This document shows, in pieces, positions 3,665 through 36,573 of a stretch of 64,000 nt of DNA (its first letter is position 1; each line of letters begins with the position of its first letter). The notes beneath the pieces are model-generated. The model ran no database searches. It saw only the letters and a program-made list of their open reading frames with translations, and was not told the origin of the DNA. The position numbers and the translations under genes were made by a program. Location: NCBI GenBank assembly GCA_028715605.1, contig JAQURM010000003.1, positions 1 through 64,000 on the forward strand, written 5' to 3'. The DNA comes from Desulfovibrionales bacterium. Lineage in GTDB: Bacteria; Desulfobacterota; QYQD01.

Positions 3665-3793
3665 CAGATAAGACTGGCTGACTTTCAAGCGATCAGCCGT
3701 CAGTAATCGGCAGACAGCCAGAGACTGAAGGCTGAGCGCTGATAGCTGACAGCTAATTCAGAGGCCGGGCATCTGGCCTGGTTAGGTAAATAA

Positions 3794-3833: not shown

Positions 3834-3849
3834 TTCCCCACAGGGCAAG

Positions 3850-4044: not shown

Positions 4045-4294
4045 ACTTATCTCCCTTGTTCGAACCTCAGCTTATTTTCTATTCTATGGCGCGATTGTCC
4101 CAGGCACAAGGAAATTTAAAGAATTTATGAGGGTTGACTTTCCATGGGCCTTAATTTAATGTCTTTTTAAAAGCCTGAGAAGAATCTGCAGCGAGGATAC
4201 TATGCCAAGGCGAGGGCCTTTGACCTTTGTAAAGTTTTTAGGGAAATGATATTGACCTTAGCAGAAGAATTGGCGCGTTAGAGGAGGAATCAAT

Positions 4295-4762
4295 TTGGAA
4301 GGGCTGGAAGATATGATAGCCGTGCATGATGTCCAACTGGTAGAGCAACAGGATGGGTATCAGATTATCTTAAAAGAGAAGGCGGACAGTAAATATTATT
4401 TTACGATGCTCATCGGTCCGGCTGAATTCGCTGCCATTGCCAAGGAAAAAGGCACTTACAGGCCCCCCCGGCCGCTAACGCATGATCTTTATTTAGGGAT
4501 ATTGAAAAATCTGGGCATTAAATTCTTGCGTGTGGAGATATATGAGCAGCAAGATAATGCTTATATTGCCAATGTCTTTTATGAAAAAGGCGAGAACGAG
4601 GTCGGGGTTGATTCCAGGCCCAGTGATGCCCTGGCCCTGGCCTTGAATCAGCAAATTCCTATACTGGTCAGGCGGAAACTATTTAAGACCGAGGTATCCA
4701 AGGAAGAAAGGGAATTTTACAGGGATATAATTAAGGTAGTAAAATTTAAAGAAACAGAATAA
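4295..4762 (+). CDS. Bifunctional nuclease-fold (DUF151) protein
   Basis: A 155-aa protein of the BFN/DUF151 family, best known from Thermotoga crystal structures and plant homologues with nuclease activity. The diagnostic C-terminal stretch VDSRPSDALALALNQQIPI is present near residues 108-127, as is the YLGILKNLGIKFLRVEI-like middle. The start is a TTG at 4295 preceded by GAGGAGG at 7-nt spacing; no better ATG exists before residue 7. Cytoplasmic; substrate in bacteria unsettled. Confidence 0.8.
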   Translation: MEGLEDMIAVHDVQLVEQQDGYQIILKEKADSKYYFTMLIGPAEFAAIAKEKGTYRPPRPLTHDLYLGILKNLGIKFLRVEIYEQQDNAYIANVFYEKGENEVGVDSRPSDALALALNQQIPILVRRKLFKTEVSKEEREFYRDIIKVVKFKETE

Positions 4763-4773
4763 CCCGGTGCATG

Positions 4774-5805: not shown

Positions 5806-5828
5806 ACTTTGATTGGTTTCCCCCGGGC

Positions 5829-5920
5829 ACTTTTTACGAGTTCATCATATACTTTCAATCGAACATTTTACCCATATTCTTTAATTCTGTTAAGTTTTAA
5901 TTGACGGCCTCGTAAAAAGT
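5829..5920. repeat. MITE-like element with GTAAAAAGT inverted ends
   Basis: Arms ACTTTTTACGAGTTCATC (5829-5846) and GACGGCCTCGTAAAAAGT (5903-5920) are inverted repeats of each other around about 56 bases. The same end sequence recurs at 7246, 11327, 11490, 24228, 29457 and 31566. After it, 5938-6017 holds an AGCTATCAGC/GCTGAGAACTGA-type self-complementary repeat also seen near 3.7, 7.44, 19.87 and 21.18 kb. Confidence 0.65.
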
Positions 5921-6123
5921 CCATTTACTGCGAAATAGCGATCAGCCATCAGCTATCAGCGGTCAGTTAAGGAGCTATTCCACTTCCTGAAAGCTGAGAA
6001 CTGAATGCTGACTGCTATTTTTATTTGAGCGCACAAAAATCTTGTCTTAAGTGTTTAAACAGGCTAAAACGCAACGTGATCTCACTGGCTAAAATTTTAG
6101 AAACCACTTAAGAGACGGGAAAG

Positions 6124-6369
6124 ATGGAAGAGACGGTAACCAAAGAAGTTGAAATGCAGAGGGCCCATTTGGAAAAAAAGATTCAGGAGTTAGAAGCAGA
6201 AAAAAAGGCCGATGATCGAAAGATACTGGAACTCACGGAAAGGGAGCTTAAGCGCTGTGAGATTCATACTGAAGAAATTCATCTCCTGCGCAAGAGGAAT
6301 TTTGAGATATCTTTTGAGATACTTACGAGGCGTAACGAGATAAAAAGGCTAGGCAGAAGTTACGTATAA
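6124..6369 (+). CDS. Small coiled-coil protein, 81 aa
   Basis: Almost entirely alpha-helical, with heptad-like spacing of hydrophobic residues and many Lys/Glu pairs (HLEKKIQELEAEKKADDR). No known family recognised. The ATG at 6124 follows ACGGGAAAG. The YkgJ-like gene starts 68 nt downstream on the same strand, so they may be cotranscribed. Confidence 0.6.
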   Translation: MEETVTKEVEMQRAHLEKKIQELEAEKKADDRKILELTERELKRCEIHTEEIHLLRKRNFEISFEILTRRNEIKRLGRSYV

Positions 6370-6437
6370 CCGGTCTTTCGAATATTTTGCCCGGCTTGTA
6401 CAGTCCGGAAAATTTAACACAAAAGGAAATAAGATAC

Positions 6438-7247
6438 ATGACAGAACCGAACAAAGTTGTAACTGGAGAAGCAGGCGAGTTAGGAGAGCCCCGGCCGCTC
6501 ATGCCGGGCGAGAGGTTTCGCTTTGCCTGCCGTAAGGGATTAAGATGTTTTACCCATTGTTGCCGTGACCTTAATCTCTTCCTCTCGCCTTATGATATAC
6601 TGCGCCTGAAAAACAGACTGGGCATTTCATCCGGCGATTTTCTGCGGAAATATGCCTCTACCAATATCGGTATTGTCTCGGGATTCCCGGTGATGACTCT
6701 TCGTATGAACAAGGACCAGGAGCGGACCTGCCCTTTTGTTACGCCGGACGGGTGCACCGTCTATGCGGACCGGCCTGCCTCCTGCCGCACTTATCCTCTC
6801 GGTCGCCTGGTAGAAAAAAACAGAGATACCAACCGGAAAAAAGAGAACTATTTTATCTTCCAGGAAGACCATTGCCTGGGGTTTGCAGAGCCGAATGAAT
6901 GGTCTATAGAAGAGTGGCTGGATGATCAGGAGATAAAAATTTATAACGAGATGAATGACCTTTTTATGGAACTTATTGTGAGCAGGGATCGTGCCGGGAT
7001 TAAAAATCTGACCGATGAGCAGATGCGAAATTTTGCCCTGGCCTGCTACAACCCGGATAAATTCAAGGACATGGTTTTTACACCAGGGTTCCTGGAAGAA
7101 TTTGACCTTTCGGTCGAGTATGTTACCCGGCTTCGTTCAGATGAACTGGAACTGATGAAGTTCGGCATCAGGTGGGCCCAGTTTATGGTTTTTGGGGAAA
7201 AGACGCTCCTGCTTAAGTCGGGTCCGCCGCAGGAGGATCAAAGTTGA
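6438..7247 (+). CDS. YkgJ-family cysteine-cluster protein
   Basis: A 269-aa protein of the YkgJ (CxxxCxxCC zinc/iron-chelate) family. Clustered cysteines CRKGLRCFTHCCRD lie near residues 31-44, followed by CPFVTPDGCTVYADRPASCRTYP near 92-118, the usual second half of the site. The cluster is thought to bind a metal, but function is unknown. I start at the ATG at 6438 behind AAAAGGAAAT; the frame is open further upstream. The stop overlaps the left end of a repeat element. Confidence 0.8.
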   Translation: MTEPNKVVTGEAGELGEPRPLMPGERFRFACRKGLRCFTHCCRDLNLFLSPYDILRLKNRLGISSGDFLRKYASTNIGIVSGFPVMTLRMNKDQERTCPFVTPDGCTVYADRPASCRTYPLGRLVEKNRDTNRKKENYFIFQEDHCLGFAEPNEWSIEEWLDDQEIKIYNEMNDLFMELIVSRDRAGIKNLTDEQMRNFALACYNPDKFKDMVFTPGFLEEFDLSVEYVTRLRSDELELMKFGIRWAQFMVFGEKTLLLKSGPPQEDQS

Positions 7248-7425
7248 TGAACTCGTAAAAGGCCCAAAATATCACGCAAAGCCGCCAAGGACGCAAAAAG
7301 AATAAAATTTGGAACTCAGGAACTCATAAAGAAAAATACTATTCTATTCTTGATTTCCAGATTTTAATTTTTCCTTCGCGGTCTTTGCGCCTTTGCGTGA
7401 GAAATTGACCTGTTACGAAGCCGTC
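7246..7425. repeat. MITE-like element containing a 115-bp dispersed segment
   Basis: Left end GATGAACTCGTAAAA (7246-7260) and right end TTACGAAGCCGTC (7413-7425) are the inverted ends of the same family as 5829-5920. Inside, 7295-7409 is nearly identical, in inverted orientation, to 24241-24365 (shared stretches such as TTTGGAACTCAGGAACTCAT and CCTTCGCGGTCTTTGCGCC). An AGCTTTCAGC-rich repeat follows at 7436-7475. Confidence 0.75.
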
Positions 7426-7458
7426 AAAGTTGAGCTTTAAGTCTTCAGCCTTCAGCTT

Positions 7459-8607
7459 TCAGCTTTCAACTTCGACCTTTGAACTTGATTTGATCCGTCT
7501 TGTCTTCCGGGCAACCTTTTCCGGCTTTAATCCTTTGAGGATGTCCCCTTCCCAATTAAATACCAACCTTGGCCTGGCCGGCGCAGGATGTTTTTCCATC
7601 GCATAAGCGGCCAGCAGCGATAAGGAGACACTGGGTTCTACCCAGGCCATGGCAAAGTCTGCATCTTTTTTTATCTTCCCCCAGGACTGGGCTTCACCCA
7701 GGGTTGAACCGGAAAGACCGCCGTCATGTGAAACCGCTGTGGTGACCTGTATGGCATAGGAGTGTCCGCGTTCCAGACTGAATATATAACTCATAACTAT
7801 GGAGTCGTTGATGTAGTTTTTCGGTACGCCACCGGCCACGTAGATGGCCGCCGTCTTTTTTGACCTGACCACAATCTGTGTAAGCTCATAATTGTCCTGA
7901 ATAGAATCAATGGCAACTCCCGGCTTTGAGTCCGTTTTACACCTGTGCCGGTGTTCAGTAAGGCCGATGCCTATGGAAGAATCATTTATAGCCGGGGCAA
8001 AAATAGGTATGCCCATGCGGTGGCATTGGTAAACTATAGAGCGTTCGTCATCCAGATGAGAGCCGATAAAATCTATGTACTGCCGGCTGGAATAATTACC
8101 GGGCGGCAGTTCATCGGCAATCTTGCTGCACCACATATCGGTTTTCCAGAAGGCCTCCTCATCTACGTAAGTATCATAGATACGGTCTATGTAAAGGTCT
8201 CTGAGTATCCGGTCATCTGCCGCCGGAGTCCCCTTATAATGCTTATATCCTCTGGCCTGGTATATATCCTGATAGAGGATGGCCCCGGTTGACACCACTA
8301 CGTCTATATAACCTCCTACAATTAACTCACGTATGACATTCCTTAATCCGGCGGCGATCAGGGGGCCGGCCAGCCCCAGGAAAATCGTAGGCCGGTCAGG
8401 ATCTTCGAACATCCTGGACAGAACTCTCGCGCAATTGCCCAGATTTCGTGCCTGTATGGACATCCCGTTCATTTGTCCCAGCAGGTCACCCACGGTCATC
8501 CCCGGTGATATCTCCACGGGACGTATCGCCTCAGCTAAAATTTTACGTTTACGAAGTTTAGCCCCCTGAGACAGATGGCTATAACCGGAAGACGGCTTTG
8601 ATTTCAT
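7459..8607 (-). CDS. Deoxyhypusine-synthase-like NAD-dependent enzyme
   Basis: A 382-aa member of the deoxyhypusine synthase superfamily. The N-terminal MTVGDLLGQM, the NAD-fold LGLAGPLIAAGLRNVI, the VVSTGAILYQD segment and the AGGVPKNYI motif with the candidate catalytic Lys are all recognisable. Archaea and eukaryotes use DHS to modify eIF5A, which bacteria lack. Bacterial members are proposed to make homospermidine or other polyamines, so the likely role here is polyamine synthesis, not translation-factor modification. The start has AGGAGG upstream. The C-terminal 25 residues are basic. Confidence 0.8.
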   Translation of the reverse strand: MKSKPSSGYSHLSQGAKLRKRKILAEAIRPVEISPGMTVGDLLGQMNGMSIQARNLGNCARVLSRMFEDPDRPTIFLGLAGPLIAAGLRNVIRELIVGGYIDVVVSTGAILYQDIYQARGYKHYKGTPAADDRILRDLYIDRIYDTYVDEEAFWKTDMWCSKIADELPPGNYSSRQYIDFIGSHLDDERSIVYQCHRMGIPIFAPAINDSSIGIGLTEHRHRCKTDSKPGVAIDSIQDNYELTQIVVRSKKTAAIYVAGGVPKNYINDSIVMSYIFSLERGHSYAIQVTTAVSHDGGLSGSTLGEAQSWGKIKKDADFAMAWVEPSVSLSLLAAYAMEKHPAPARPRLVFNWEGDILKGLKPEKVARKTRRIKSSSKVEVES

Positions 8608-8718
8608 GATTCCTTATATTACCTCCTGAAAAATTATAGGCCCGTGGGAACGGCCTATTATTACGAAAAGATTGAACATATAAAAAATAAACAAAAAAAT
8701 CAAACAATCAATAACCCC

Positions 8719-9429
8719 TTAGTCTTCCATCCCGCGCAACTTGCGGAGCATCGAACGTTCCAGTCTGCGGATATAGTCGTTCATTATATTTTCTGTCTTA
8801 TTATCAATACCTGTGAATTCTAATCCGCACTGGATCACGTTGGTCTCCATATTATCCTGCAACCTTCTTACTATGGCTGACTTTACGTCAATCCCGTAAA
8901 CTTGTCCCTCCAGGAGGAGATTGACTCTGATCTCTTTTAGTTCATCACCGAGCTTTAGAAATTTTTCCTTACCCTTGTTTCGGGGGACGAGGATAGCTAA
9001 TCCGCTTACACTGATGTCTTTTATGGCGAAGGCCGAGGTTTCTCCTCCCGGGGACATCCTCACTTCACTGCCTGAGGGGACATCAATACGGAAGTGCCGC
9101 CGTCTTTGGATACGAACAATTTCTTTGGGGGAATAGACCCATATCTCCCTGTCCTCTGCCTTGTAGGGCCTGGTTGAAAAACGATACGGGATTTTTTGGC
9201 TGTCAATACATTCAAAGATAAGCTTGGGATCCGGATGAGAGAGAATAATATCCGCAAAATCTTCTATCCAGTCCATTGCCACATATTGTTGGTCACCGAT
9301 TACAGGGAGCTTGAGGATGATAGTTAAGCGAGTGTAATCAGCGCCAGGAATAAACAGGCTGAGTTGAGTTTTCCTCAACATGATCTCGCGCAAAAAACGC
9401 AGGGCATTTTTACCGACAAGGGTTTCCAT
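8719..9429 (-). CDS. PilZ-domain c-di-GMP receptor with YcgR-like N-domain
   Basis: A 236-aa protein. The C-terminal PilZ domain has both c-di-GMP-binding motifs: RRRHFRIDVP (RxxxR) near residue 105 and DISVSGLAI (D/NxSxxG) near 138. The N-terminal 100 residues match the YcgR-type flagellar-brake fold in layout. It stands alone. Probable role is to sense c-di-GMP and act on motility or surface structures, but the partner cannot be read from context. Confidence 0.85.
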   Translation of the reverse strand: METLVGKNALRFLREIMLRKTQLSLFIPGADYTRLTIILKLPVIGDQQYVAMDWIEDFADIILSHPDPKLIFECIDSQKIPYRFSTRPYKAEDREIWVYSPKEIVRIQRRRHFRIDVPSGSEVRMSPGGETSAFAIKDISVSGLAILVPRNKGKEKFLKLGDELKEIRVNLLLEGQVYGIDVKSAIVRRLQDNMETNVIQCGLEFTGIDNKTENIMNDYIRRLERSMLRKLRGMED

Positions 9430-9673
9430 GAATTAATCGATTTTTGTATCCTGGTTATACGGAACAGATTTTCGCCGGATGTCCCTAAGAATACATCGGT
9501 AAGTTAACCGTTAACTTCAAAAAAATGTCAACAAAAAAACAGATTACAACGGTCGGCAGTCAAGGAAGGTGAGAGGGGAGACGTAAGGGGAGGTACGAGA
9601 GACGCCTCACGTCTGGAGCTATACGCTACCCGCTGAAAGCTATGTGTTCTGTGGTTAATCTTTTGATAAAACG

Positions 9674-26586: not shown

Positions 26587-27918
26587 CTAGTTCCTGTTGG
26601 ATGACAAAAGAACACCGATAACCTGATCGCCCAGGATGCGTTCGATTTTTACGTCTATCATCCCGCTGATAGATACACCTTTTGTGTCTATCAAAACCGG
26701 GATGTAATTGGGCGTAAGTCCTTTATAAAGTTTGGAATGCCTGTCCCGGCCCTCGATGAGAACGCTGGTTTTTTGTCCCAGGTTTCGAAAATAGAATGTC
26801 TTCTTTTTGAGAAGCCCCATCTCCTTAAGCTGCCCGGCCCTCAGGGTGGCTGCCTTTGTGTTTACGCTTTCCGGAAAGGCACAGGCGGCGGTTCCCGGTC
26901 GGGCGGAATAGCGGAATACGTGCAGATAGGTTATGGGCAGTTCGGATAAGAGATCGTAAGTTTCTCTAAACTCCTTTTCCCCCTCCCCCGGAAAACCGAC
27001 CATTACATCAGTGCCTATGGCTGCCGTAGGCATGGCATCATGGATCATGCCGGTCATATTCCTATAAAATTCCGGGGAGTAATGGCGGTTCATCCTTTTT
27101 AACGTCTCTGCGCTTCCACTCTGGAGGGGGATGTGGAAGTGTGGACAGATGACATCCGATCCGGCCATGAATGTCACCAGTTCTTTTGTTATTTCCAAGG
27201 GTTCGATCGAGCTGATGCGGATTCTGCGAAGCCCTTTCACCTTTTCCAACGACGCCAGAAGTTCATAGAGCGAGGTCGGTGGGGTGAGATCCCGGCCGTA
27301 CTGTCCCAGGTTGATGCCGGTAAAGACTATCTCCTGATAGCCGGACTCCACAAGCCGCTCCGTCTGTTTAAGCGCCTCACCCGGCGGCAGGCTGCGGCTG
27401 CGCCCCCGGGCATAGGGGACGATACAATAGGAGCAAAAGGCATTGCAGCCGTCCTGTATCCGGAGAAAAGCCCTGGTGCGCCGTGAGAAATGTTCGACGG
27501 TGAAGGGGCAGATATTTTTTACCTCTTCTATAGCCCCTACGTAGATTTCAAAGGAGTTATCCGGGTTATGCGGGCTGAGGTAGTTTGCCAGGTTAAACTT
27601 TCGATCATTCCCAACCAGACAGACATTGCCGGCCTGGCAGAATTCCAACAGTTCCCGGCTGGCCGTCTGGACATAACAGCCGGTGGCGATAATCCTGGCG
27701 GCGGGATTGGTGCGCATGGCCCGGCGGATGAGCTGCCTGGACTGAAAGTCCGCTTTGGCCGTGACCGTGCACGTGTTTATGATGTATGCGTCGGCCGGCT
27801 GTGAAAACGGGACTATAGTATGGCCTTGGGCCCTGAGCTGTTCTTCTATGGCTGCCGATTCAAATTGATTGACCTTACAGCCCAGGGTCTCTATGGCGAT
27901 CTTCTGTATTTCAGACAA
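26587..27918 (-). CDS. mtaB: tRNA t6A37 C2-methylthiotransferase MtaB
   Basis: A 443-aa radical-SAM methylthiotransferase. Domain order is an N-terminal UPF0004 domain (ETLGCKVNQFES, with the auxiliary-cluster Cys residues 13, 49 and 83 or so), a radical-SAM core with CNAFCSYC near 155, and a C-terminal TRAM domain. The LGCKVNQ start separates it from MiaB and RimO. It converts t6A to ms2t6A in tRNAs reading ANN codons. It overlaps mnmA by 8 nt, so two tRNA sulfuration enzymes are made together. Confidence 0.93.
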   Translation of the reverse strand: MSEIQKIAIETLGCKVNQFESAAIEEQLRAQGHTIVPFSQPADAYIINTCTVTAKADFQSRQLIRRAMRTNPAARIIATGCYVQTASRELLEFCQAGNVCLVGNDRKFNLANYLSPHNPDNSFEIYVGAIEEVKNICPFTVEHFSRRTRAFLRIQDGCNAFCSYCIVPYARGRSRSLPPGEALKQTERLVESGYQEIVFTGINLGQYGRDLTPPTSLYELLASLEKVKGLRRIRISSIEPLEITKELVTFMAGSDVICPHFHIPLQSGSAETLKRMNRHYSPEFYRNMTGMIHDAMPTAAIGTDVMVGFPGEGEKEFRETYDLLSELPITYLHVFRYSARPGTAACAFPESVNTKAATLRAGQLKEMGLLKKKTFYFRNLGQKTSVLIEGRDRHSKLYKGLTPNYIPVLIDTKGVSISGMIDVKIERILGDQVIGVLLSSNRN

Positions 27919-28969
27919 TGAATCCGCCTCCTACCACCACATCCCCTTTATAGAAAACGGCTGCCTGTCCCGGCGTAATGGCCTTTTGCGGCTCCTTAAA
28001 ACGGACGCGGACGGTGGCGGCATCTACAGGGGTCAGCATTGCAGGGGCCTCCCTGTGTCTATAGCGAATACGCATTTTGACCTCCAATGCCTGCGTGATT
28101 TCCCGGACAGAGACCCAATTTACCTTTTCTACCATGCAGTCCTGGCGATAGAGGTCTTCTTTCTTGCCGATAATAACCTGTTTTTTCTCAATATTAAACC
28201 CCAGGACGTAAAAAGGAGTCGCATCCGGCAGGCCAAGCCCCCGGCGCTGCCCGATGGTGAAATTAAAAATTCCCCGGTGTTTCCCCAGGATACGGCCTTC
28301 GGTATCCACGATATCGCCGGAATCATCCAGACCTGGCGGCATTCGTTCCCGCAGAAATTCTTTATAATCTCCATGGGGGATAAAACATACCTCCTGGCTT
28401 TCACGTCCGGATAAGTCTTTGAGACTTATCCGGGAGGCATAATTTCTGACTTCGGGTTTAGACATCTCACCCAGCGGAAGAAGGATTCGGGCCAGTTGTT
28501 CCTGCCTGAGCGTGCAGAGAAAATAGGACTGATCCTTGGCGCGGTCGGAACCCTTGCGCAGGATGAACCGGCCGGACTCTTCATTATATGCCACACGGGC
28601 GTAATGGCCGGTAGCTATCTTTCCCGCGCCGAGAGATAAGGCCCTCTCCAGCAGGACGCCCAGTTTGATCTGCTTATTGCAGACCACACACGGGTTGGGA
28701 GTCCGGCCCTGCAGGTATTCATCAATAAAATAATGGATGACCTCTTCGGTGAACGGCTTTTCCACATCAACGGCGTAAAAAGGGATATCGAGACGGCGAG
28801 CTACGGCCCCGGCTTTTTCGGCGCATACGGCCATGTCGTCCGTGGGGATCAGCATGTGCAGGGCAAAGATGTCGCACCCTTCCTCTTTAAGCAGGGCGGC
28901 GGCCACGGCGCTGTCTATGCCCCCGCTTAAGGCTACGGCAATCCTTTTTTGTGGGGGATAATTACTCAT
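27911..28969 (-). CDS. mnmA: tRNA-specific 2-thiouridylase MnmA
   Basis: About 352 aa. The PP-loop ALSGGIDSAVAAALL binds ATP near residue 14. The catalytic cysteines lie in TPNPCVVCNKQIK near 90 and SQEVCFIPHGDY near 190. It thiolates U34 of Lys, Glu and Gln tRNAs, taking sulfur from a relay that can include TusA-like carriers. I start at the ATG at 28969; an upstream TTG at 28990 is possible. Neither has a strong ribosome binding site. It is followed by mtaB and preceded by a ferredoxin-type gene. Confidence 0.92.
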   Translation of the reverse strand: MSNYPPQKRIAVALSGGIDSAVAAALLKEEGCDIFALHMLIPTDDMAVCAEKAGAVARRLDIPFYAVDVEKPFTEEVIHYFIDEYLQGRTPNPCVVCNKQIKLGVLLERALSLGAGKIATGHYARVAYNEESGRFILRKGSDRAKDQSYFLCTLRQEQLARILLPLGEMSKPEVRNYASRISLKDLSGRESQEVCFIPHGDYKEFLRERMPPGLDDSGDIVDTEGRILGKHRGIFNFTIGQRRGLGLPDATPFYVLGFNIEKKQVIIGKKEDLYRQDCMVEKVNWVSVREITQALEVKMRIRYRHREAPAMLTPVDAATVRVRFKEPQKAITPGQAAVFYKGDVVVGGGFIV

Positions 28970-29002
28970 AGAGAAGGGGATGGGGCGCAAAGAGAGCGGC
29001 TT

Positions 29003-29428
29003 CTAAAAACCTGATGCATTACGCAGATGAACTTCCATGGCCCTTACCGGGCAGGTCGCCACACAGAGTTCGCAACCGCTGCATTTTTCGGGTTCAAAAC
29101 ATACCTCCATCTCCGGACGGCGGATATAGAGGGCCCCGGTGGGGCAGACGGCGGTACAGGCCCCGCATTGAAGACACTTGTCCATATTGCGGTTGATATC
29201 CTGACCGATGGTCTTTATTTTTACCCCGCATTCTTCCAGATACTTTATCCCCCGATTAAAATTCTTGCGATGCCCGCTCAGTTCCATGATCATAAGACCA
29301 TCCTGCCCCGGCAGGATGGTGGCCTTGAGGATGTTGAAAGAGAGGTCAAATTCCCTGACTAGGTTGCAGACGATCGGCCTATCTACGACATCCTGTGGAA
29401 AGCGAAGCACCAGCATGCGTGAATACAT
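29003..29428 (-). CDS. NIL-domain plus 2[4Fe-4S] ferredoxin protein
   Basis: A 141-aa protein. Residues 1-75 form a NIL domain (as found at the C-terminus of MetN), with VCNLVREFDLSFNILKA. Residues 85-130 carry two clusters, CLQCGACTAVCPTGAL and CSGCELCVATCPVRAM. Such fusions sit in methionine/homocysteine or sulfur-assimilation contexts in anaerobes; placement next to mnmA suggests sulfur-related redox chemistry here. The first 48 codons and upstream region are duplicated at 31.4-31.6 kb. Confidence 0.88.
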   Translation of the reverse strand: MYSRMLVLRFPQDVVDRPIVCNLVREFDLSFNILKATILPGQDGLMIMELSGHRKNFNRGIKYLEECGVKIKTIGQDINRNMDKCLQCGACTAVCPTGALYIRRPEMEVCFEPEKCSGCELCVATCPVRAMEVHLRNASGF

Positions 29429-29525
29429 GGTATCACCTCATGTAATTGGGACGACGGTCTCGTAAAAAGTCTGTTTACTGTATCTTATTTATGCTTTTTT
29501 GCGGCTTATGTCAAATTTTCAATGT
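29285..29525. repeat. 240-bp direct repeat, copy 1 (original ferredoxin 5' region)
   Basis: Covers the first third of the NIL-ferredoxin gene, its start codon and about 97 bases upstream. The same sequence with a few percent differences lies at 31396-31634, at a constant offset of 2111 bases. The gene is complete on this side, so this copy is the functional one. The restriction-modification genes lie between the two copies. Confidence 0.9.
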
Positions 29526-29647
29526 TGTAATTCTCTTAGAAATAGTTGACAAACGACCCTATTCTCACATAATGTCCTTATATGTCGTACAACAATATAA
29601 AAGTAATGTTTGGCATGAAATGAAAAAGGCTTAAGATGGGGTTTTCA

Positions 29648-29779
29648 ATGAATGTTCCTGTCAAACGAGAAGATTTAGAACTTTTAATTCAACAGCAGGT
29701 GCAAGAGAGGCTTCATTTAGATTACAATAGCATAATTCGAACCGATAGATTGGAAGATGTGAGATGTTTGAGCAGATAA
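29648..29779 (+). pseudogene. Truncated AlbA_2 (Schlafen-like) protein N-terminus
   Basis: A 43-codon frame starting at the ATG at 29648. Its N-terminus MNVPVKREDLELLIQQQVQE with RLHLDY closely resembles the start of AlbA_2/Schlafen ATP-binding-type proteins. The similarity stops after HLDY, where the family continues with a conserved lysine-containing strand, and the frame ends at 29779 inside the start of the restriction gene. I read it as a remnant or a short leader reusing the old start. Confidence 0.45.
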
Positions 29780-30492
29780 AGAACAAAGGATTTCAAGTCC
29801 TAACGCTGCATCACGCAGAAGCCATTTTGACACACGATATGGCAGATGCCTTAGCCGAGTTGGAAAAGGTTCTACTGGATGTTGAGATACCCGCCGAGGA
29901 GCTGGTTCGGGGCGGCGGCGGTGAGGGCGAACTTACGCAGCGCCTGCGGCGTGCGTTATCGGTCGATCATGGTTGGAAAAAACACAATTTCGAGATCAAA
30001 AAGATAGTTGATGGAGAAGAGAAGGAATCCATCTCCCACGAAATTGATCATGTCAAGCGTTTCTCAACAGGCACATTTGCTCTGGAAATCGAATGGAACA
30101 ACAAAGACCCGTTTTTCGATCGAGACCTGGAAAACTTTAAACGGTTACACGCGGACGGTGTTATTTCAATTGGAGCGATCATAACTAGAGGTTTTACGCT
30201 CCAGGATTCGCTCCGGGATATTGTCGCGCAATTTGCGCGAAAGAATCTGATTAACAGCCTGGCCGCAGTCCGGCAGTACTATTCACCGACGAATCGTCAA
30301 AGCGAAATAATAGAACGAGCGGCAGTAACAAAAAGTTCCTTTGAGGAAGGATGGGCGCATGCATTTGTTTCTGACAAGTTCGGTGAAGCAACGACCCACT
30401 GGAGAAAGCTTGAAGATCGCGTACGACGCGGAGTCGGTAATCCATGTCCACTACTGTTGATAGGGATTCCCAAAGAGGTTGTAGTAATTTAG
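29764..30492 (+). CDS. BglII/BstYI-family type II restriction endonuclease
   Basis: A 242-aa protein of the BglII/BstYI restriction endonuclease family (R.BglII is similar in size). The segment HEIDHVKRFSTGTFALEIEWNN with KDPFFDRDLENF near residues 85-120 matches the catalytic region of the family. BglII cuts AGATCT and BstYI RGATCY; the exact site here cannot be read. A methyltransferase gene follows 17 nt downstream, giving a complete R-M pair. The pair lies between long direct repeats, a sign of acquisition. Confidence 0.85.
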   Translation: MFEQIKNKGFQVLTLHHAEAILTHDMADALAELEKVLLDVEIPAEELVRGGGGEGELTQRLRRALSVDHGWKKHNFEIKKIVDGEEKESISHEIDHVKRFSTGTFALEIEWNNKDPFFDRDLENFKRLHADGVISIGAIITRGFTLQDSLRDIVAQFARKNLINSLAAVRQYYSPTNRQSEIIERAAVTKSSFEEGWAHAFVSDKFGEATTHWRKLEDRVRRGVGNPCPLLLIGIPKEVVVI

Positions 30493-30509
30493 AAAATATG
30501 GAGGAAGCC

Positions 30510-31199
30510 ATGACGGCAAAGGTGTACAACATCGCGGAACCAAATCCATCGGAAGATCTTCTAGTAAAAATGTATGGGCAGTATTCGACAATACTGGCTG
30601 ATCCTCCGTGGCAATTTCAGAACCGAACCGGGAAGATGGCACCAGAGCATCGCCGGTTGCTCCGATACCCTACTATGGAATTAAAGGAAATTCTGGAGCT
30701 TCCTGTATCTAAACTCGCCGCTGCTAAATCACATCTTTATCTGTGGGTACCGAACGCTCTTCTTCAGGAAGGGTTGAAGGTGATGGAAGCCTGGGGGTTC
30801 ACTTACAAGACCAACTTGGTTTGGTACAAGATCCGAAAGGATGGCGGACCGGATGGACGTGGCGTGGGCTTTTACTTTCGGAATGTCACGGAGTTGGTAC
30901 TATTTGGCGTCCGCGGTAGCATGCGCACTCTTCTCCCAGGTCGGACGCAGGTTAACCTCTTTGCCACACGAAAGCGGGAACACTCCCGCAAACCTGACGA
31001 AATCTATGACTTGATCGAGTCGTGTTCCTCCGGCCCCTATTTAGAGCTTTTCGCACGCTTCCGCCGTCCAGATTGGAGTCAGTGGGGCAATGAAGATGTC
31101 GAGGAGAACACCTACTACGGTGTGGCCAGACGCAAAGGACATGTTAACCCTCAAATGCGCCTGCTTGAAACACCACGAGGGTACGGCACAAAGAGGTGA
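30510..31199 (+). CDS. MT-A70 family adenine-N6 DNA methyltransferase
   Basis: A 229-aa enzyme with the catalytic DPPW motif (ILADPPWQFQNRTG near residue 32), the MT-A70 body LYLWVPNALLQEGLKVMEAWGF, and the SAM-site-like segment EHSRKPDEIYDLIE near 175. I choose the ATG at 30510 because GGAGGAAGCC lies directly upstream, rather than the open extension 5'. It presumably protects the host from the adjacent BglII-like endonuclease by methylating an adenine. The classical M.BglII is an N4-cytosine enzyme, so the pairing is unusual. Confidence 0.85.
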   Translation: MTAKVYNIAEPNPSEDLLVKMYGQYSTILADPPWQFQNRTGKMAPEHRRLLRYPTMELKEILELPVSKLAAAKSHLYLWVPNALLQEGLKVMEAWGFTYKTNLVWYKIRKDGGPDGRGVGFYFRNVTELVLFGVRGSMRTLLPGRTQVNLFATRKREHSRKPDEIYDLIESCSSGPYLELFARFRRPDWSQWGNEDVEENTYYGVARRKGHVNPQMRLLETPRGYGTKR

Positions 31200-31224
31200 C
31201 GCCCGGTCAGGTAACCATAGAAGA

Positions 31225-31392
31225 ATGGAAGAATGTGGACGCTGGTAAGAAAGTAAGTTGACAAAGGAAGAAGGCGTAACTACGAAATAGAACTCATGCC
31301 GAGACAAGCCCGCCTTGACGCATCCGGTGTCCTGCGTCACATCTAATCGAATAAGGTTTTGTTACTTTTTTATCGGCGTCCCCACATCCCCA
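31225..31392 (+). mobile_element. RAYT remnant, copy 2, with inverted terminal repeats
   Basis: A 168-bp unit. The left part, AAGAATGTGGACGCTGGTAAGAAAGTAAGTTGAC, matches the leaders at 141 and 34.31 kb. An ATG at 31296 begins MPRQARLDASGVLRHI and then stops. The right end (31361-31391), read on the other strand, is GGGGACGCCGATAAAAAAGTAAC, an inverted copy of the left leader. So a transposase-derived fragment lies between inverted ends, like a REP/MITE made by a RAYT. Confidence 0.65.
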
Positions 31393-31395
31393 CTA

Positions 31396-31634
31396 CATAA
31401 TCAAAAGACCATCCTGCCCCGGCAGGATGGTGGCCTTGAGGATGTTGAAAGAGAGGTCAAATTCCCTGACCAGGTTGCAGACGATCGGTCTATCTACGAC
31501 ATCCTGTGGAAAGCGAAGCACCAGCATGCGTGAATACATGGCATCACCTCATGGTAATTGGGACGGCTTCGTAAAAAGTCCGTTTGCTCTGTATTATTTA
31601 TGCTTTTTTACGGCTTATGTCAATTTTTCAATGT
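31396..31634. repeat. 240-bp direct repeat, copy 2, with truncated ferredoxin 5' end
   Basis: A second copy of 29285-29525. It includes a minus-strand start at 31539 and about 48 codons of the NIL domain (MYSRMLVLRFPQDVVD...), then breaks off at 31396, against the RAYT element. It is a non-functional gene fragment. Upstream of it (31635-31889) no further gene or clear repeat is seen, although a promoter for the nuclease genes at 31890 should be there. Confidence 0.9.
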
Positions 31635-31889
31635 CGGTATCATACACGCCTCAGCGCCAGGCGCCCAGATCCTTCACGGACTCCGCATCCCAAGTATATT
31701 TTTCGTGGCTACAATGATTCTTATTTTTATGCAGCGACTGCATAATATTGTTATAGGCAATATAAGACAGCTACTTTACCCCCAAGACCCCACAAAAACC
31801 CCCTTTTTGCTTGACGCCACTACCTTTTTTCTCTATGACTATGAAAAAGACAGTCGACAGCTAAAATATAATGTTCGCTGAAAAGATGA

Positions 31890-32342
31890 ATGATGGACAA
31901 GCCATTCCAACGCAAGGGTGCTGACAGCAACACTCAAGTCGGGCGCGATTTTGAGACCAAGGCTGAAGCGTTCTTCGCAGCTCAAGGGATCAAACTCACA
32001 CGCGGGGTTTCGATAGAGATTGGCGTCAACGGGAAGAAGCCCCACAACTTCGACCTCGGGGACGAGCACGCCAAGGTCCTTGTGGAGTGCAAGGCCCACA
32101 CATGGACAGAGGGCGGAAACGTGCCTAGTGCAAAGATGACAACATGGAATCAGGCCATGTTCTTCTTTCATGCGGCTCCAAGCGGCTTCCGCAAAATCCT
32201 CTTTGTTCTCAAAGACTTCAGTGAGAAAAGAAAAGAGACTCTGGGGCAATACTACATTCGCACAAACCCACACCTCATCCCGAAGGATGTAGAAGTCTGG
32301 GAGTTCGACGAAGCTGGCAACACAGCAACAAGAATCAAATGA
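31890..32342 (+). CDS. Putative PD-(D/E)XK nuclease-like protein
   Basis: A 150-aa protein, family not recognised by name. Features fit a restriction-endonuclease-like fold: an early GRDFETKAEAFFAAQGI helix, then FDLGDEHAKVLVECKAH (D...ExK pattern) around residues 58-74, and MTTWNQAMFFFHAAP. It lies 50 nt before a large Mrr-type nuclease gene. Probably a DNA-targeting enzyme or defence component; a role of this pair as one system is inferred. Confidence 0.6.
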   Translation: MMDKPFQRKGADSNTQVGRDFETKAEAFFAAQGIKLTRGVSIEIGVNGKKPHNFDLGDEHAKVLVECKAHTWTEGGNVPSAKMTTWNQAMFFFHAAPSGFRKILFVLKDFSEKRKETLGQYYIRTNPHLIPKDVEVWEFDEAGNTATRIK

Positions 32343-32392
32343 AGCAGCCAACCGTGACGTTATAGTGCTTGATTAATTAGAGGAGATTAAGA

Positions 32393-34189
32393 ATGAATAA
32401 TGATCAAATTCAAATCGGGCGGGGAGACGCATGGATAGGCAGCGACATAACTGCCACGGCTACCAAAAACCATGATCAAATTCAGGTTGGACAGGCTCAA
32501 GCCTATGAGAATGTCTCTGGCACGCGGATATTGAAATATACCGTTGAAATGTTTCATCGGGGTTTGAATGAACACAAAATAGTATCTGCTCCTGAAATTG
32601 ATATGTTGGAAAACAAAGCAAATTTGCAGGCCCAGAAGTGGACTGAAAAGTGGGAACTACTCGAATCGAAACGAAGAATTTCCGAAGAAAAAGAGGCGAA
32701 CATTGAAGAAGCAAATTCTAGGACAGAAGAAGTGCTTGCCGCTTTAAAATCAGTTGAAAATCTGCTTCTTCATACTCTCTCGATTAATGATACCGTCGAT
32801 TGGGAAACGTTGAAGAAAAAGGAAGGTTATCCAAAGAAAATGCCTTCGAAGCCAACCAAGGCAAGTTACAAGGAATACCCTTCAGAACCCTCTAAAAAAT
32901 CACCACAGTTTACTTTCTTTGAAAAGTTGTTTAGATCGAAGAAGGAAAGCAAATTGAAGGAGTTGGAGACTAAGTATCTATCGGCTATTGCCGACTGGGA
33001 AGAGCAAAAGAAATCCATTGACAAATACAATTATCAATTGGATGCAGATTTTGAAAAGGCTCTAAGGCAGTGGGAGCATGAAGTGTCAGAGTGGGAGAAG
33101 CAGAAGCAAAATTTCATACAACAACAGGCCGACTTCAATTCAAAAATCGATAAAATGAAAGATTCATATTTAACCCAAGATGTTGATTCAATTGTTGAAT
33201 ATTGTGACATGGTCTTGAATAACTCAGACTATCCCAAGTCCTTCCCCAAAAGCTTTGAATTGGAATATAACCCTGACAATAGAATTTTGATCGTAGAATA
33301 TGAACTGCCTTCAATTGATTGTTTTCCAAAGATAAAAGAAGTTAAATATATCGCAGCAAGGAAAGAATTGAAAGAAAGTTACATTGCAGAATCTCAAATA
33401 AATAAAATGTTTGACGAGGCGATATACAAAATTACGTTACGATCAATTCACGAATTGTTTGAAGCGGATGCAGCTAATGCTATCGACGCTATTTCCTTCA
33501 ATGGCTGGGTGAAAGCAATAAACAAAGCTACCGGCAAAGAAGAAAATAATTGCATTCTTAGTATTCAAGTGAAAAAAAGCGAATTTATGGGTATCGATCT
33601 TCGCAATGTCGAGCCCAAAACGTGTTTTAAGAATCTGAAAGGCGTGGCAAGCAGTAAATTGAGCAGCTTAACCCCCGTTCAGCCGATTCTTCAAATTAGT
33701 AGAATGGACAAAAGATTTGTACAAAGCTATGATGTCGCCAGCCAGCTTGATACTACCACTAACATTGCTGCAATGGATTGGGAGGATTTTGAACATTTGA
33801 TCCGGGAATTATTTGAAAAGGAATTTCAAACTAATGGCGGCGAATGTAAAGTAACCCGGGCCAGCAGAGACGGCGGCGTTGATGCCATTGCGTTTGATCC
33901 AGATCCAATTCGGGGCGGCAAAATAGTAATCCAAGCCAAGCGATATACGAATACCGTCGGTGTTTCCGCTGTGCGTGATTTATACGGGACTGTTGTTAAT
34001 GAAGGGGCAACAAAAGGAATCTTGGTTTCAACTGCCGATTACGGGCCAGATGCATATGAGTTTGCAAAAGGCAAGCCACTGACCCTATTAAATGGCTCAA
34101 ACCTTTTACATCTATTAGAAAAACACGGGCATCACGCAAAGATAGATTTAAGAGAAGCAAAGAAAATCATAGCAGAAAAAGAAAAATAA
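32393..34189 (+). CDS. Mrr-type restriction endonuclease-like protein with coiled-coil region
   Basis: A 598-aa protein. Residues 1-45 contain two related repeats (NNDQIQIGRGDAW, NHDQIQVGQAQAY). Residues 70-260 form a long charged coiled-coil with a Pro/Ser stretch near 145-165. Residues 455-570 form an Mrr_cat domain: WEDFEHLIRELFEKEFQ, RASRDGGVDAIAF and KIVIQAKRYTNTVGVSAVRDL carry the D...QxK nuclease core. Mrr-type domains cut modified or foreign DNA. AGGAGATTAAGA precedes the ATG. An attC-like hairpin begins right after the stop. Codon usage is more A/T-rich than the housekeeping genes, suggesting transfer. Confidence 0.8.
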   Translation: MNNDQIQIGRGDAWIGSDITATATKNHDQIQVGQAQAYENVSGTRILKYTVEMFHRGLNEHKIVSAPEIDMLENKANLQAQKWTEKWELLESKRRISEEKEANIEEANSRTEEVLAALKSVENLLLHTLSINDTVDWETLKKKEGYPKKMPSKPTKASYKEYPSEPSKKSPQFTFFEKLFRSKKESKLKELETKYLSAIADWEEQKKSIDKYNYQLDADFEKALRQWEHEVSEWEKQKQNFIQQQADFNSKIDKMKDSYLTQDVDSIVEYCDMVLNNSDYPKSFPKSFELEYNPDNRILIVEYELPSIDCFPKIKEVKYIAARKELKESYIAESQINKMFDEAIYKITLRSIHELFEADAANAIDAISFNGWVKAINKATGKEENNCILSIQVKKSEFMGIDLRNVEPKTCFKNLKGVASSKLSSLTPVQPILQISRMDKRFVQSYDVASQLDTTTNIAAMDWEDFEHLIRELFEKEFQTNGGECKVTRASRDGGVDAIAFDPDPIRGGKIVIQAKRYTNTVGVSAVRDLYGTVVNEGATKGILVSTADYGPDAYEFAKGKPLTLLNGSNLLHLLEKHGHHAKIDLREAKKIIAEKEK

Positions 34190-34275
34190 CTATAACAACC
34201 GCATCCAGCCGACCGCGAATAAGCGTGGGGCGTTTTTCATTCTTTCCTTTGCAGCACGGTCGGCTGATGCATCTC
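34190..34275 (+). other. attC-like (integron recombination site) hairpin
   Basis: Directly after the nuclease stop: TATAACAACC, then the arm GCATCCAGCCGACC (34201-34214), a loop containing GCGTGGGGCGTTTTTC, and the arm GGTCGGCTGATGC (34258-34270). The arms pair over 13 bp with one unpaired C, the kind of extrahelical base found in attC sites, and TAACAA is attC R''-like. The expected GTTRRRY at the right end is missing; a group II intron-like 5' end starts at 34276 instead. Confidence 0.45.
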
Positions 34276-34468
34276 GTGTGTGCCGGGCATGGCATAGGAC
34301 TATCGGGCAGAAGAATGGGGACGCTGATAAAAAAGTAAGTTGACAAGGGAAAGCGTAACTACGAAATAAATCCCATGCTAAGACAAGCCCGCCTTGACGC
34401 ATCCGGTGTCCTGCATCACATCATGATCCGTGGAGGGAAGTCGAGAGGCTCCTCCTTATCCCGATTAT
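34276..34468 (+). mobile_element. Composite remnant: group II intron ends interrupted by RAYT copy 3
   Basis: GTGTGTGCCGGGCATGGCAT (34276-34295) plus AGGACTATCGGG resembles the 5' end of a group II intron (GUGYG start, domain I). At about 34309 it switches to the RAYT leader AGAAGAATGGGGACGCTGAT. An ATG at 34375 then gives MLRQARLDASGVLHHIMIRG, and from 34433 GGGAAGTCGAGAGGCTCC-TCCTTATCCCGATTAT, the same 3' end as in the element at 35524. No intron-encoded protein or complete transposase remains. Confidence 0.55.
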
Positions 34469-34512
34469 GCCAATAATAAATTACCGATTAATCCCTTCTT
34501 TTACTTGTTTAC

Positions 34513-34541
34513 TTGACATACTAAAAGTACTTTAGTATAAT
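34513..34541 (+). promoter_or_regulatory. Near-consensus sigma-70 promoter with inverted-repeat spacer
   Basis: TTGACA (34513-34518), a 17-bp spacer and TATAAT (34536-34541) form a perfect consensus promoter 33 bases before the SeqA-N-like gene. The spacer contains CTAAA-AGTAC-TTTAG (34521-34535), an inverted repeat placed where a repressor would block polymerase. This suggests autoregulation of the following hicBA operon. Confidence 0.75.
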
Positions 34542-34573
34542 AGTGCGAAAAGCAATAAAAGGAGGAGATCCTC

Positions 34574-35059
34574 ATGCAAACCTATAAGATTGAAATTGAC
34601 GAAAGGGTCTGGAATTACCTGAAGAGCAAGGCCGAGCCGTTTGAGGACACCCCAAATTCGGTATTAAACAGAATCCTCCTTGGAGGACAGCTGTCTGGCC
34701 TGCAAGAGGTAAATAGAAAGTCCACAATTAGTACTCCGCCAATTTTTCCCGATGGTGCTCCTAAGGCATTGGCACAGATACTTGAAGTCATTTACGAGGT
34801 GAAAAAATCGGGGCGGAATAGAAGGGAAGCGACTAACCTTGTCGCTCAAAGAAGAAATACAGCTCCTCAAACGGTCATTGACAAGTATTGCAGGCAACTT
34901 GGCAAGAGGGCTTATGAAATTGACCGGCTCTTAGAGGATCAGAAATTAGGGGAATTGAGGGCATTACTTGAAAAGAAATTTGTCAACCATCGGGAGGTAA
35001 TAAACTCCTTTTTCGCCTCTTTAAACGGCAGGAAAAACATGGAGGAGCATCATGCATAA
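34574..35059 (+). CDS. Small DNA-binding-like protein (SeqA-N/RHH-like) leading a hicBA operon
   Basis: A 161-aa protein. The N-terminal 40 residues (MQTYKIEIDERVWNYLKSKA, ETPNSVLNRIL-like) resemble the ribbon-helix-helix/SeqA N-terminal oligomerisation fold. The rest is helical and basic, with no family recognised. AAAGGAGGAG precedes the ATG. Its last 8 bases overlap the start of hicB, so the three genes are translationally coupled. The HicB here is too short to carry its own DNA-binding domain, so this protein may be the operon repressor. Confidence 0.6.
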   Translation: MQTYKIEIDERVWNYLKSKAEPFEDTPNSVLNRILLGGQLSGLQEVNRKSTISTPPIFPDGAPKALAQILEVIYEVKKSGRNRREATNLVAQRRNTAPQTVIDKYCRQLGKRAYEIDRLLEDQKLGELRALLEKKFVNHREVINSFFASLNGRKNMEEHHA

Positions 35060-35264
35060 TGAGTTTACAGCAATTATTGAAAAAGACGGAGATTGGTATA
35101 TTGCTTACTGCCCTGAGGTTCCTGGGGCAAATGGGCAAGGCAAAACAATTGAGGAATGCAAAGCAAGTTTGGCGGCGGCTATCTCACTCATACTGGAAGA
35201 TCGGCGTGAGGACGCCATGCGCGGATTACCAGAAGATGCAATTCGCGAGGTCGTCGCAGTCTGA
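35052..35264 (+). CDS. hicB: HicB-family antitoxin
   Basis: A 70-aa protein with the HicB partial RNase-H-like fold: FTAIIEKDGDWYIAYCPEVPG, then QGKTIEECKASLAAAISLIL. It neutralises HicA. It lacks the C-terminal ribbon-helix-helix or HTH extension of longer HicB proteins. The stop overlaps the hicA start (ATGA), the usual coupling for antitoxin-first modules. Confidence 0.88.
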   Translation: MHNEFTAIIEKDGDWYIAYCPEVPGANGQGKTIEECKASLAAAISLILEDRREDAMRGLPEDAIREVVAV

Positions 35265-35461
35265 TGAAGAGACAAGCCCTCCTACGGCATTTGCGTCGGT
35301 ATGGTTGCTTCCTCAAGAGAGAAGGGGGATCTCATTCGCTTTGGATGAACCCAGCGAATGGTTCTGTGGAGACGGTGCCGCGACACACTGAAATCTCCGA
35401 CAAGCTTGCCAGAAAAATATGCAAAGGACTCGGAATCGCTGATCTCCATAAAGAAGAGTAA
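35264..35461 (+). CDS. hicA: HicA-family mRNA interferase toxin
   Basis: A 65-aa dsRBD-like toxin. The catalytic His lies in REGGSHSLW near residue 23, the usual G-S-H motif, and the strand after it (NPANGSVETVPRHTEISDKLARKI) fits HicA. It cleaves mRNA when free. An attC-like hairpin starts 13 nt after the stop. The module appears intact. Confidence 0.88.
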   Translation: MKRQALLRHLRRYGCFLKREGGSHSLWMNPANGSVETVPRHTEISDKLARKICKGLGIADLHKEE

Positions 35462-35473
35462 CAAAAACCATGG

Positions 35474-35523
35474 CATAACAATAGGCTTCAGCGGATGGCT
35501 GATAGCCACCGCTGAGCCGTAGC
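35474..35523 (+). other. attC-like hairpin after hicA
   Basis: GGCATAACAATA leads into a long, nearly perfect hairpin. GGCTTCAGCGG (35484-35494) pairs with CCGCTGAGCC (35509-35518), leaving one T unpaired; after an unpaired A, TGGCT-GAT-AGCCA closes the loop. The layout (xTAAC, stem with extrahelical bases, short loop) is that of a short attC. The right GTTRRRY box is absent; a group II intron-like 5' end starts at 35524. Confidence 0.45.
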
Positions 35524-35716
35524 GTGTGTGCCGGGCATGGCACAGGACTATCGGGGTGAGAGTCCCCGATCCAGGTTTTAGCGGAGCCGAAGGCTAGGAA
35601 AAGGACAAGAGCCTGCCCCGGACATGATCCGGGAAACAGGAACCAGATTTGATCCGCCTGCGGCAAATGTTGTGGGATGGTGGGGAAGTCGTGAGGCTCC
35701 TCCCTATTCCGATTAT
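35524..35716 (+). mobile_element. Internally deleted group II intron-like element
   Basis: Starts GTGTGTGCCGGGCATGGCAC, then AGGACTATCGGGGTGAGAGT and CCCCGATCC, matching the conserved 5' region of bacterial group II introns. It ends GGGGAAGTCGTGAGGCTCCT, then CCCTATTCCGATTAT, like domain VI with its unpaired A and the 3' end. Only about 190 bases remain; the catalytic middle and any reverse transcriptase are gone, and I cannot identify domain V. About 70 bases of unannotated DNA follow before the next gene. Confidence 0.55.
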
Positions 35717-35784
35717 GCTCTTATTAATCATTATTGTCTTGCCTTGTGATGTATGTTTAAATAGTTCAGTGAAGGAGGCACACT

Positions 35785-36018
35785 ATGGCGACAACAAATG
35801 ACAGAGTTATTGAAGAAGCCCTATCCCTTCCGGCAAACGTCCGTCTAAGCTTGGTTGAGAAGCTTCTGACGAGCCTCAACCTTCCAATCGATGAGGAAAT
35901 AGATCGCCTTTGGGCAGAAGAAGCGGAACGTCGCGTGTCACAAATTGAGGAAGGCAAGGCTAAACTGGTCCCCGGTGAGGAAGTCTTCTCCAAGATTCGA
36001 GCGAAGCACGGAAAATGA
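35785..36018 (+). CDS. Addiction-module antitoxin (Unstab_antitox family), no toxin adjacent
   Basis: A 77-aa protein of the putative addiction-module component family (TIGR02574-like). ALSLPANVRLSLVEKLLTSL, then DEEIDRLWAEEAERR, is the diagnostic layout. AAGGAGG precedes the ATG. The usual partner, a RelE/ParE toxin just downstream, is missing; the next gene is another antitoxin-like protein. It may act as a solitary anti-addiction factor. Confidence 0.78.
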   Translation: MATTNDRVIEEALSLPANVRLSLVEKLLTSLNLPIDEEIDRLWAEEAERRVSQIEEGKAKLVPGEEVFSKIRAKHGK

Positions 36019-36049
36019 GATTCTATTTCCACTGAGGAGGAACATTTGT

Positions 36050-36250
36050 ATGAGCAAGGTCGAGAACATAGAAAGTGAGATCCGAAAACTATCTTCATCT
36101 GAACTTGCAAGGTTTCGCAAATGGTTTGTGCAATTCGATGCTGAGGCTTGGGACCGGCAAATTGAAGAAGATGCAAAGGCTGGGAAGCTGGATGCTCTTG
36201 CCGATAAGGCACTGAAGGCTTTCGAGTCAGGCGAGTGTACCGAAGTTTGA
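36050..36250 (+). CDS. Antitoxin-like small protein, 66 aa
   Basis: The sequence IESEIRKLSSSELARFRKWF, then FDAEAWDRQIEEDAKAGKLD, is typical of small proteins that pair with RelE/ParE-family toxins. GAGGAGGAACATTT precedes the ATG at 36050, which I prefer over the longer open frame overlapping the previous gene. No toxin follows; mazE starts 71 nt downstream behind its own promoter. Likely the second orphan antitoxin of the island. Confidence 0.72.
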   Translation: MSKVENIESEIRKLSSSELARFRKWFVQFDAEAWDRQIEEDAKAGKLDALADKALKAFESGECTEV

Positions 36251-36263
36251 GGCACTTTTTAAA

Positions 36264-36299
36264 TTGACATTCTCCCATCGCAGATATACATTGTATATC
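36264..36299 (+). promoter_or_regulatory. mazEF promoter with palindromic operator
   Basis: TTGACA at 36264-36269 and TACATT at 36287-36292 (17-bp spacer) form a promoter. The perfect palindrome GATATAC-ATT-GTATATC (36283-36299) covers the -10 region. MazE-type antitoxins repress their own operons through such palindromes, so this is probably the autoregulatory site. Confidence 0.75.
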
Positions 36300-36321
36300 A
36301 TATATGTAAGGGGATATAACT

Positions 36322-36573
36322 ATGCAAGATAATATGGAGTTACAAATTGGGAAATGGGGTAATTCGCTTGGCATTCGACTTCCAAAACATGTATTAGAAT
36401 CACTCCATCTGGGTGTAAAGGATCGGGTAAGTTGCTCATTAGAGGATGGAAAATTGATTTTAAAGCCACTGTCTCACCAAAAGAAATACACATTAGAAGA
36501 GTTGCTCGCCCAGGTACAAGAACCCGGCAAGGAAGTTTCATGGGGCAAACCTGAAGGAGAGGAAGTTTGGTAG
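36322..36573 (+). CDS. mazE: MazE-like antitoxin (AbrB/SpoVT fold)
   Basis: An 83-aa protein with the swapped-hairpin AbrB domain at the N-terminus: LQIGKWGNSLGIRLPKHVLE near residue 7. Its acidic C-terminal tail (EEVW at the end) is the part that binds and blocks the toxin. Its stop overlaps the start of mazF. Regulation is through the palindromic operator just upstream. Confidence 0.88.
   Translation: MQDNMELQIGKWGNSLGIRLPKHVLESLHLGVKDRVSCSLEDGKLILKPLSHQKKYTLEELLAQVQEPGKEVSWGKPEGEEVW

Follow-up and report, generated by a model that had tools for sequence, protein, structure and literature searches.

A BglII-type restriction-modification pair between long direct repeats of a ferredoxin gene start in a Desulfovibrionales bacterium

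Organization of the locus

The window is a stretch of 64,000 nucleotides (positions 1 to 64,000 of contig JAQURM010000003.1) from a Desulfovibrionales genome, G000, that comprises 2,555,435 bases in 25 contigs. Four other genomes of the same genus are designated G001 to G004. The features discussed here are, from left to right:

26587-27918, minus strand: mtaB (NCBIfam equivalog, above cut-off)
27911-28990, minus strand: mnmA (NCBIfam equivalog, above cut-off)
29003-29428, minus strand: NIL-domain 4Fe-4S ferredoxin gene, intact (Pfam NIL, 6.9e-16, and 4Fe-4S)
29285-29525: copy 1 of the repeat, the ferredoxin 5' end and 97 bp upstream; its right-hand continuation is common to G004
29530-29612, plus strand: dispersed leader P1, about 85 bp, promoter-like, ending at GTT
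29608-29763, plus strand: putative 5' end of a gene cassette, matching G004:C21 and shortened by the restriction-modification (R-M) pair
29764-30492, plus strand: BglII-family restriction endonuclease (Pfam PF09195 Endonuc-BglII, 3e-25, 162/163 profile positions)
30444-31199, plus strand: MT-A70-type DNA methyltransferase, Type II (Pfam PF05063, 4.9e-31; PADLOC MTase_II, 6.7e-96)
31226-31391, plus strand: RAYT element, internally deleted (5' end to 31343, 3' end from 31344)
31396-31634: copy 2 of the repeat; its right-hand continuation is common to G001 and G003
31635-31688: sequence to the right of the single copy in G001 and G003
31716-31877, plus strand: dispersed leader P2, with many copies in the genus
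31890-32342, plus strand: 150-aa protein after P2, with no Pfam, NCBIfam or PADLOC match
32393-34189, plus strand: Mrr-type restriction protein (Mrr_cat; PADLOC mREase_IV), a neighbouring defence gene

The ferredoxin gene is the first of a run on one strand, with mnmA and mtaB next. Its start is contained in a direct repeat of about 240 bp, in which 29285-29525 recurs at 31396-31634 with 93% identity overall (E 1.4e-97 in a search of the own genome). The repeat consists of two blocks, 158 nt at 97% identity and spacing 2111, then 73 nt at 88% and spacing 2109, and exact tracts of 66 and 52 bp are common to the two copies. It includes ferredoxin codons 1-48 and 97 bp upstream of the gene. The gene and these 97 bp survive on the copy 1 side, and copy 2 is a defunct 5' fragment. 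A preliminary description of the locus had given the recurrence, with an offset of 2111, and had taken the duplicated stretch to be of host origin and too long for a transposon target duplication; both statements are borne out. No third full copy is present in the own genome, where the remaining matches span just 18-42 bp, and a mobile 240-bp element is thereby ruled out.

A 27-bp motif within the repeat tail (31562-31588) is dispersed in many copies through all five genus genomes. In copy 2, a 10-bp hairpin and then CTTTTGATTA form a terminator-like site on the minus strand (31408-31431). This predicted terminator faces any transcription going from copy 2 into the R-M genes. A candidate ferredoxin promoter within the repeat, noted by eye as TTGACA and then TAAATA, was set aside; the promoter scan made no call there.

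The sequence between the copies (29526-31395) is a mosaic of, from left to right, the P1 leader, the putative cassette 5' end, the endonuclease and methyltransferase genes, and a RAYT element reduced to its ends. P1 has a promoter-like site, TTGACA-16-CATAAT, at 29546-29573 that scores 11/12; promoter-like sites in the region number 4, versus 3.6 in shuffles. The stretch at 29636-29779 had been described as an AlbA_2 fragment, which the profile searches leave unconfirmed (the sole Pfam match is DUF2025, E 0.079). The evidence points instead to the 5' end of an integron cassette.

The RAYT label depends on our reading of the reading frame. The remnant noted earlier between the copies is indeed present, as an element that has lost its interior and kept both ends rather than as a mere gene fragment; compared with the full copy in G003:C251 it lacks about 950 bp. 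At the right end, copies of the element are conserved to 31390-31391, and ferredoxin homology starts at 31393-31396, so that the element ends within 5 bp of copy 2. This proximity could be taken to indicate that RAYT transposition mobilized the R-M pair and left the right end of the element within the ferredoxin gene. We consider such an event unlikely, as the element is internally deleted and the left end of the insert is not a RAYT end; nor is RAYT-type transposition known to produce 240-bp duplications. The structure does not match a transposon insertion: the insert ends are the P1 leader and the RAYT right end, and the duplication is 240 bp long. No short target-site duplication with matching terminal repeats was found around the insert. 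A search for literature on RAYT together with restriction-modification found nothing on point among the papers listed. Further RAYT 5' ends lie in the window at 34310-34422 and 141-252. The one at 34310 stops after about 110 bp and is followed by another gene pair.

The restriction-modification pair

Pfam profiles confirm the restriction enzyme and its methyltransferase, both reported earlier from between the copies. Conserved columns were compared using 38 loci taken from the 80 obtained in a search of the genome collection. The endonuclease retains 90/90 columns conserved in 37 relatives, and the methyltransferase 126/128 columns conserved in 35 relatives; the departures are S196 (P in 34/35 relatives) and D210 (G in 35/35). 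By this comparison both enzymes are apparently intact. A sequence search for a solved structure found none.

The endonuclease belongs to the Pfam family of the BglII/BstYI-type systems, and plasmid relatives are annotated as BglII/BstYI. The predicted R-M system here differs in that its methyltransferase is of the MT-A70 type. The family is widespread. It has at least 566 confirmed stretches in the genome collection, 9 plasmid records and 5 phage records, and it occurs in 17/395 genomes of the phylum, the own genome included. The methyltransferase gene is directly downstream of the endonuclease gene on the same strand in 39/80 relatives. The possibility that the R-M pair itself resides on a known plasmid or phage was discarded; the relatives there are only 25-58% identical.

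The 80 BglII-type loci, many of which end early at contig ends and are counted all the same, were also surveyed for flanking repeats. Direct repeats of at least 40 bp that span the R-M pair were flagged in four (L135, L139, L146 and L162). Flanking repeats were rejected as a family-wide trait of BglII-type R-M pairs, because long near-identical spanning repeats occur in L135 only. In L135, a Spirochaetes contig, the R-M pair is inside an array of direct repeats of about 300 bp, most of which are 91-96% alike.

The site in related genomes

When 148 genomes were searched at the DNA level with 29003-29650, 51 gave a match. Among the four of the same genus, the locus is present in G001, G003 and G004; G002, which is 81% complete, gave no match. 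In G001 and G003 a single copy runs straight into the right flank of copy 2 (31393-31686 and 31393-31688, respectively), and the homology of copy 2 to the ferredoxin genes of the relatives begins already at 31393. In G004 the single copy is joined to the same 85 bp that follow copy 1 (to 29610), after which a different reading frame begins; the contig ends 414 bp past the shared stretch. The left junction is thus firmly common to G000 and G004. No second copy of the repeat is present in G001, G003 or G004, copy 2 with its right flank was not found in G004, and the endonuclease is absent from G001 to G004.

The preliminary description had proposed a search for relatives with an empty, single-copy site, and such a site is present in two of the three same-genus genomes with the locus. 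Relatives with both copies and no R-M genes between them, which it had named as contrary evidence, number 0/3.

The insertion site is variable, since G001 carries other genes between the repeat and the next conserved gene, including an IS91-like transposase and an integrase as judged by frame reading. It appears to be a place of defence-gene turnover beside a run of tRNA-modification genes.

These comparisons bear on two explanations of the repeat. The assembly comprises 25 contigs and there are dispersed elements in the insert, circumstances in which the copies could have been wrongly put together by assembly; this is scarcely credible, as the copies differ at many sites and the left junction recurs in the independent assembly of G004. 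A simple tandem duplication of the ferredoxin 5' end, followed by insertion of the other pieces between the copies, would give the same final structure, and nothing in the sequence contradicts it. Such a two-step origin is nevertheless very unlikely, given that tandem copies are present in 0/3 same-genus genomes with the locus and that the edges of the insert coincide with the edges of both copies.

Origin of the repeats

The coding parts of copies 1 and 2 differ at 4/144 sites and share three changes (29389, 29393 and 29396) that are absent from G001, G003 and G004. The upstream tails differ at 14/95 aligned sites, more than in any pair of relatives, and the copy 1 tail carries many changes of its own. 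Six upstream sites separate G003 from G004 (29429, 29480, 29484, 29503, 29515 and 29529). Copy 2 follows G003 at 6/6 of them, while copy 1 follows G004 at 4/6 and G003 at 2/6. These site counts are small, and the assignment of the copies to haplotypes is treated as a lead.

The copies continue into the right flanks of different relatives, which favours recombination between two haplotypes over duplication; a local duplication of one target does not by itself predict that each copy borders the sequence of a different relative. The earlier reading, an insertion by recombination or duplication, therefore stands as to the insertion and is narrowed towards recombination between two haplotypes.

Our preferred reading, to which we give about an even chance, is that one homologous crossover, in which the chromosome recombined with a DNA bearing a truncated ferredoxin start, left the repeat as its scar. 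The R-M pair would have arrived on a molecule that already carried this truncated 5' end. The loaded haplotype would have consisted of ferredoxin start, tail, P1 leader, cassette remnant, R-M pair and RAYT deletion derivative, and the empty haplotype of ferredoxin start, tail and right flank. A single crossover within the ferredoxin 5' region would have joined the loaded haplotype head to tail to the empty one. The other end, where the RAYT right end is next to ferredoxin codon 48 (31391|31393), would have been closed by an illegitimate join, either before integration, in a circularised molecule, or during integration, by homology-facilitated illegitimate recombination. We infer the crossover itself, the donor, whether circular or linear, and the sequence of steps. 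Neither a donor molecule nor an excised circle was found.

The crossover is suggested by the RAYT right end adjoining copy 2, by the upstream sites and by the coding changes common to the copies. Against it, the two-haplotype signal in the tail comes from few sites, two of six of which oppose the assignment of copy 1. The left flank (about 2,690 bp) also poses a difficulty. G003 and G004 are 96.2% identical there and G000 is furthest out, at 92.5-93.7%. The site pairing of G000 with G004 versus G001 with G003 occurs 4 times, that of G000 with G001 47 times and that of G000 with G003 15 times. Because the left flank pairs G003 with G004, the loaded left junction of G000 and G004 requires that transfer or loss be assumed. 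The leader after copy 1 has diverged by about 5.5% between G000 and G004. This value is close to the 7.5% of the flank, and the loaded junction may therefore date back to the species split.

Such an age suits the main rival as well, namely an ancient insertion with a 240-bp target duplication in the ancestor of the genus, which we hold to be possible but doubtful. G001 and G003 would later have lost the insert by recombination of the copies, which restored a perfect empty site, and G004 would have kept the left side with changed contents. The left junction of G000 and G004, about as diverged as the flanks, agrees with this account, as does the divergence of the copy tails above that of any pair of relatives. 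The exact tracts of 66 and 52 bp would permit the excision. Two separate precise losses are required, however, and gene conversion must be added for coding parts that differ at so few sites and have three private changes in common. The lack of a match to copy 2 and its right flank in G004 also stands against an ancient insertion.

The preliminary description had further held that the repeats could still excise the R-M pair cleanly. The crossover and the ancient insertion both allow excision through the repeats because of the exact tracts. With the whole ferredoxin gene on the copy 1 side, clean excision may in principle occur, but no excised form was seen.

Comparison with known insertions

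An R-M insertion with long target duplication was reportedly described by Nobusato, Uchiyama, Ohashi and Kobayashi in 2000 for Helicobacter pylori 26695/J99. By its structural features the locus described here is a good example of the known kind termed insertion with long target duplication. A long direct duplication of host sequence is present at both edges of the insert, and G001 and G003 are single-copy relatives without the insert. As to a possible origin of the duplication from one target at the time of insertion, the copies border flanks of different relatives, and the site counts are small. Insertions of this kind are reported for R-M genes in H. pylori; they are known from genome comparison and, in the accounts cited, are interpreted as pointing to a mechanism by which genes move (PMC1643837, PMC3031569). 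As outlined in those accounts, in the H. pylori system, too, long direct duplicates of host DNA enclose the R-M genes, and a relative without the genes has one copy. That system differs from the present case in that the copies here border flanks from different relatives, the host is of another genus, and the insert contains a cassette start and a RAYT derivative.

A precedent for the proposed crossover comes from E. coli conjugation. In the experiments summarized there, 56/60 Lac- clones gave a PCR product diagnostic of duplication, and the 14 clones sequenced had duplications of 109-950 bp (PMC3240628). The authors' inference was a single crossover with a circular molecule that lacked part of its homology (PMC3240628). 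The resemblance of that single crossover, or homology-facilitated illegitimate recombination, to the present locus is the duplication of a homologous stretch at the edge of the insert (PMC3240628). As far as that source goes, the E. coli case is a laboratory one that involves a plasmid, whereas the case made here is drawn from sequence.

The relatives preserve an empty site and a loaded left side and so provide unusually good material for working out the origin. With both sides available, the copies can be assigned to haplotypes and the crossover model can be tested with more strains.

Leaders and integron-like sequences

The 72 bp at 29608-29679 are 94% identical to G004:C21:2424-2495 and start at GTT. 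In G004:C21 this GTT closes an attC-like site, and the boundary at 29608 is sharp relative to that sequence. The site scores 16, inside the range of shuffled-window maxima (9-22), and its neighbour scores 20; the spacing of the pair around one ORF fits an array. In Markov-resampled controls, attC-like sites scoring at least 16 occurred 5 times across three sets of 142,916 bases, so two sites scoring 20 and 16 around one ORF are unlikely by chance. No attC-like site in the window scores 18 or more. For an attC at the 3' end of the cassette, the best score in 29201-36500 is 15, versus shuffle maxima of 9-22. The locus thus resembles integron cassettes in that the putative cassette start directly follows GTT, and in G004:C21 this start lies directly after an attC-like site. 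It differs from them in that no attC-like site in 29201-36500 exceeds the shuffle level and the integron integrase is encoded on a different contig.

One integron integrase of the own genome is above the family cut-off (contig C4, 376.8 bits). Next to it are two attC-like sites with scores of 24 and 32, and a third, noted by eye, with a score of 11. In the surrounding locus (L225, G000:C4:182000-196510) the attC-like sites are within 3 kb of the integrase, and the first cassette reads like a nucleotidyltransferase.

P1 and P2 are two dispersed promoter-leader families in which similarity among copies breaks off at GTT, with different genes beyond it. P1 has 4 further copies in the genus, each ending at GTT before differing sequences; GTT is at the boundary in 5/5 P1 copies and in 12/15 of the P2 copies inspected. 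Neither leader was found outside the genus in 395 genomes, and no convincing match to P1 or P2 was found near the integron integrase of the own genome. The attI-like label for the leaders is kept as a conjecture because no attC-like sites were found near the P2 copies. A literature search for dispersed attI-like sites found none, which is no proof of absence. A speculative and rather improbable reading is that P1 and P2 are dispersed attI-like acceptor modules (promoter and leader to GTT) on which a distant integron integrase acts in trans. The R-M pair would then occupy a P1 acceptor just upstream of ferredoxin-mnmA-mtaB, and the joining of haplotypes would have left repeats that let the defence locus switch between loaded and empty.

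In G001 (L199), a 25-aa remnant of an integron integrase (intI), 68% identical, is 41 bp from a P2 copy, which bears on P2 as a candidate classical attI. The intI remnant points away from the P2 copy (1494-1568 and 1609-1761 of L199). In another region of the own genome (L198, G000:C7:86500-97500), positions of about 2700-9500 hold a run of paired small genes resembling toxin-antitoxin modules. Several of these pairs follow P2 fragments, and a repeated 3' sequence (GGGGACAGCCATGAAATAATGCAATTCT...) is present after three pairs.
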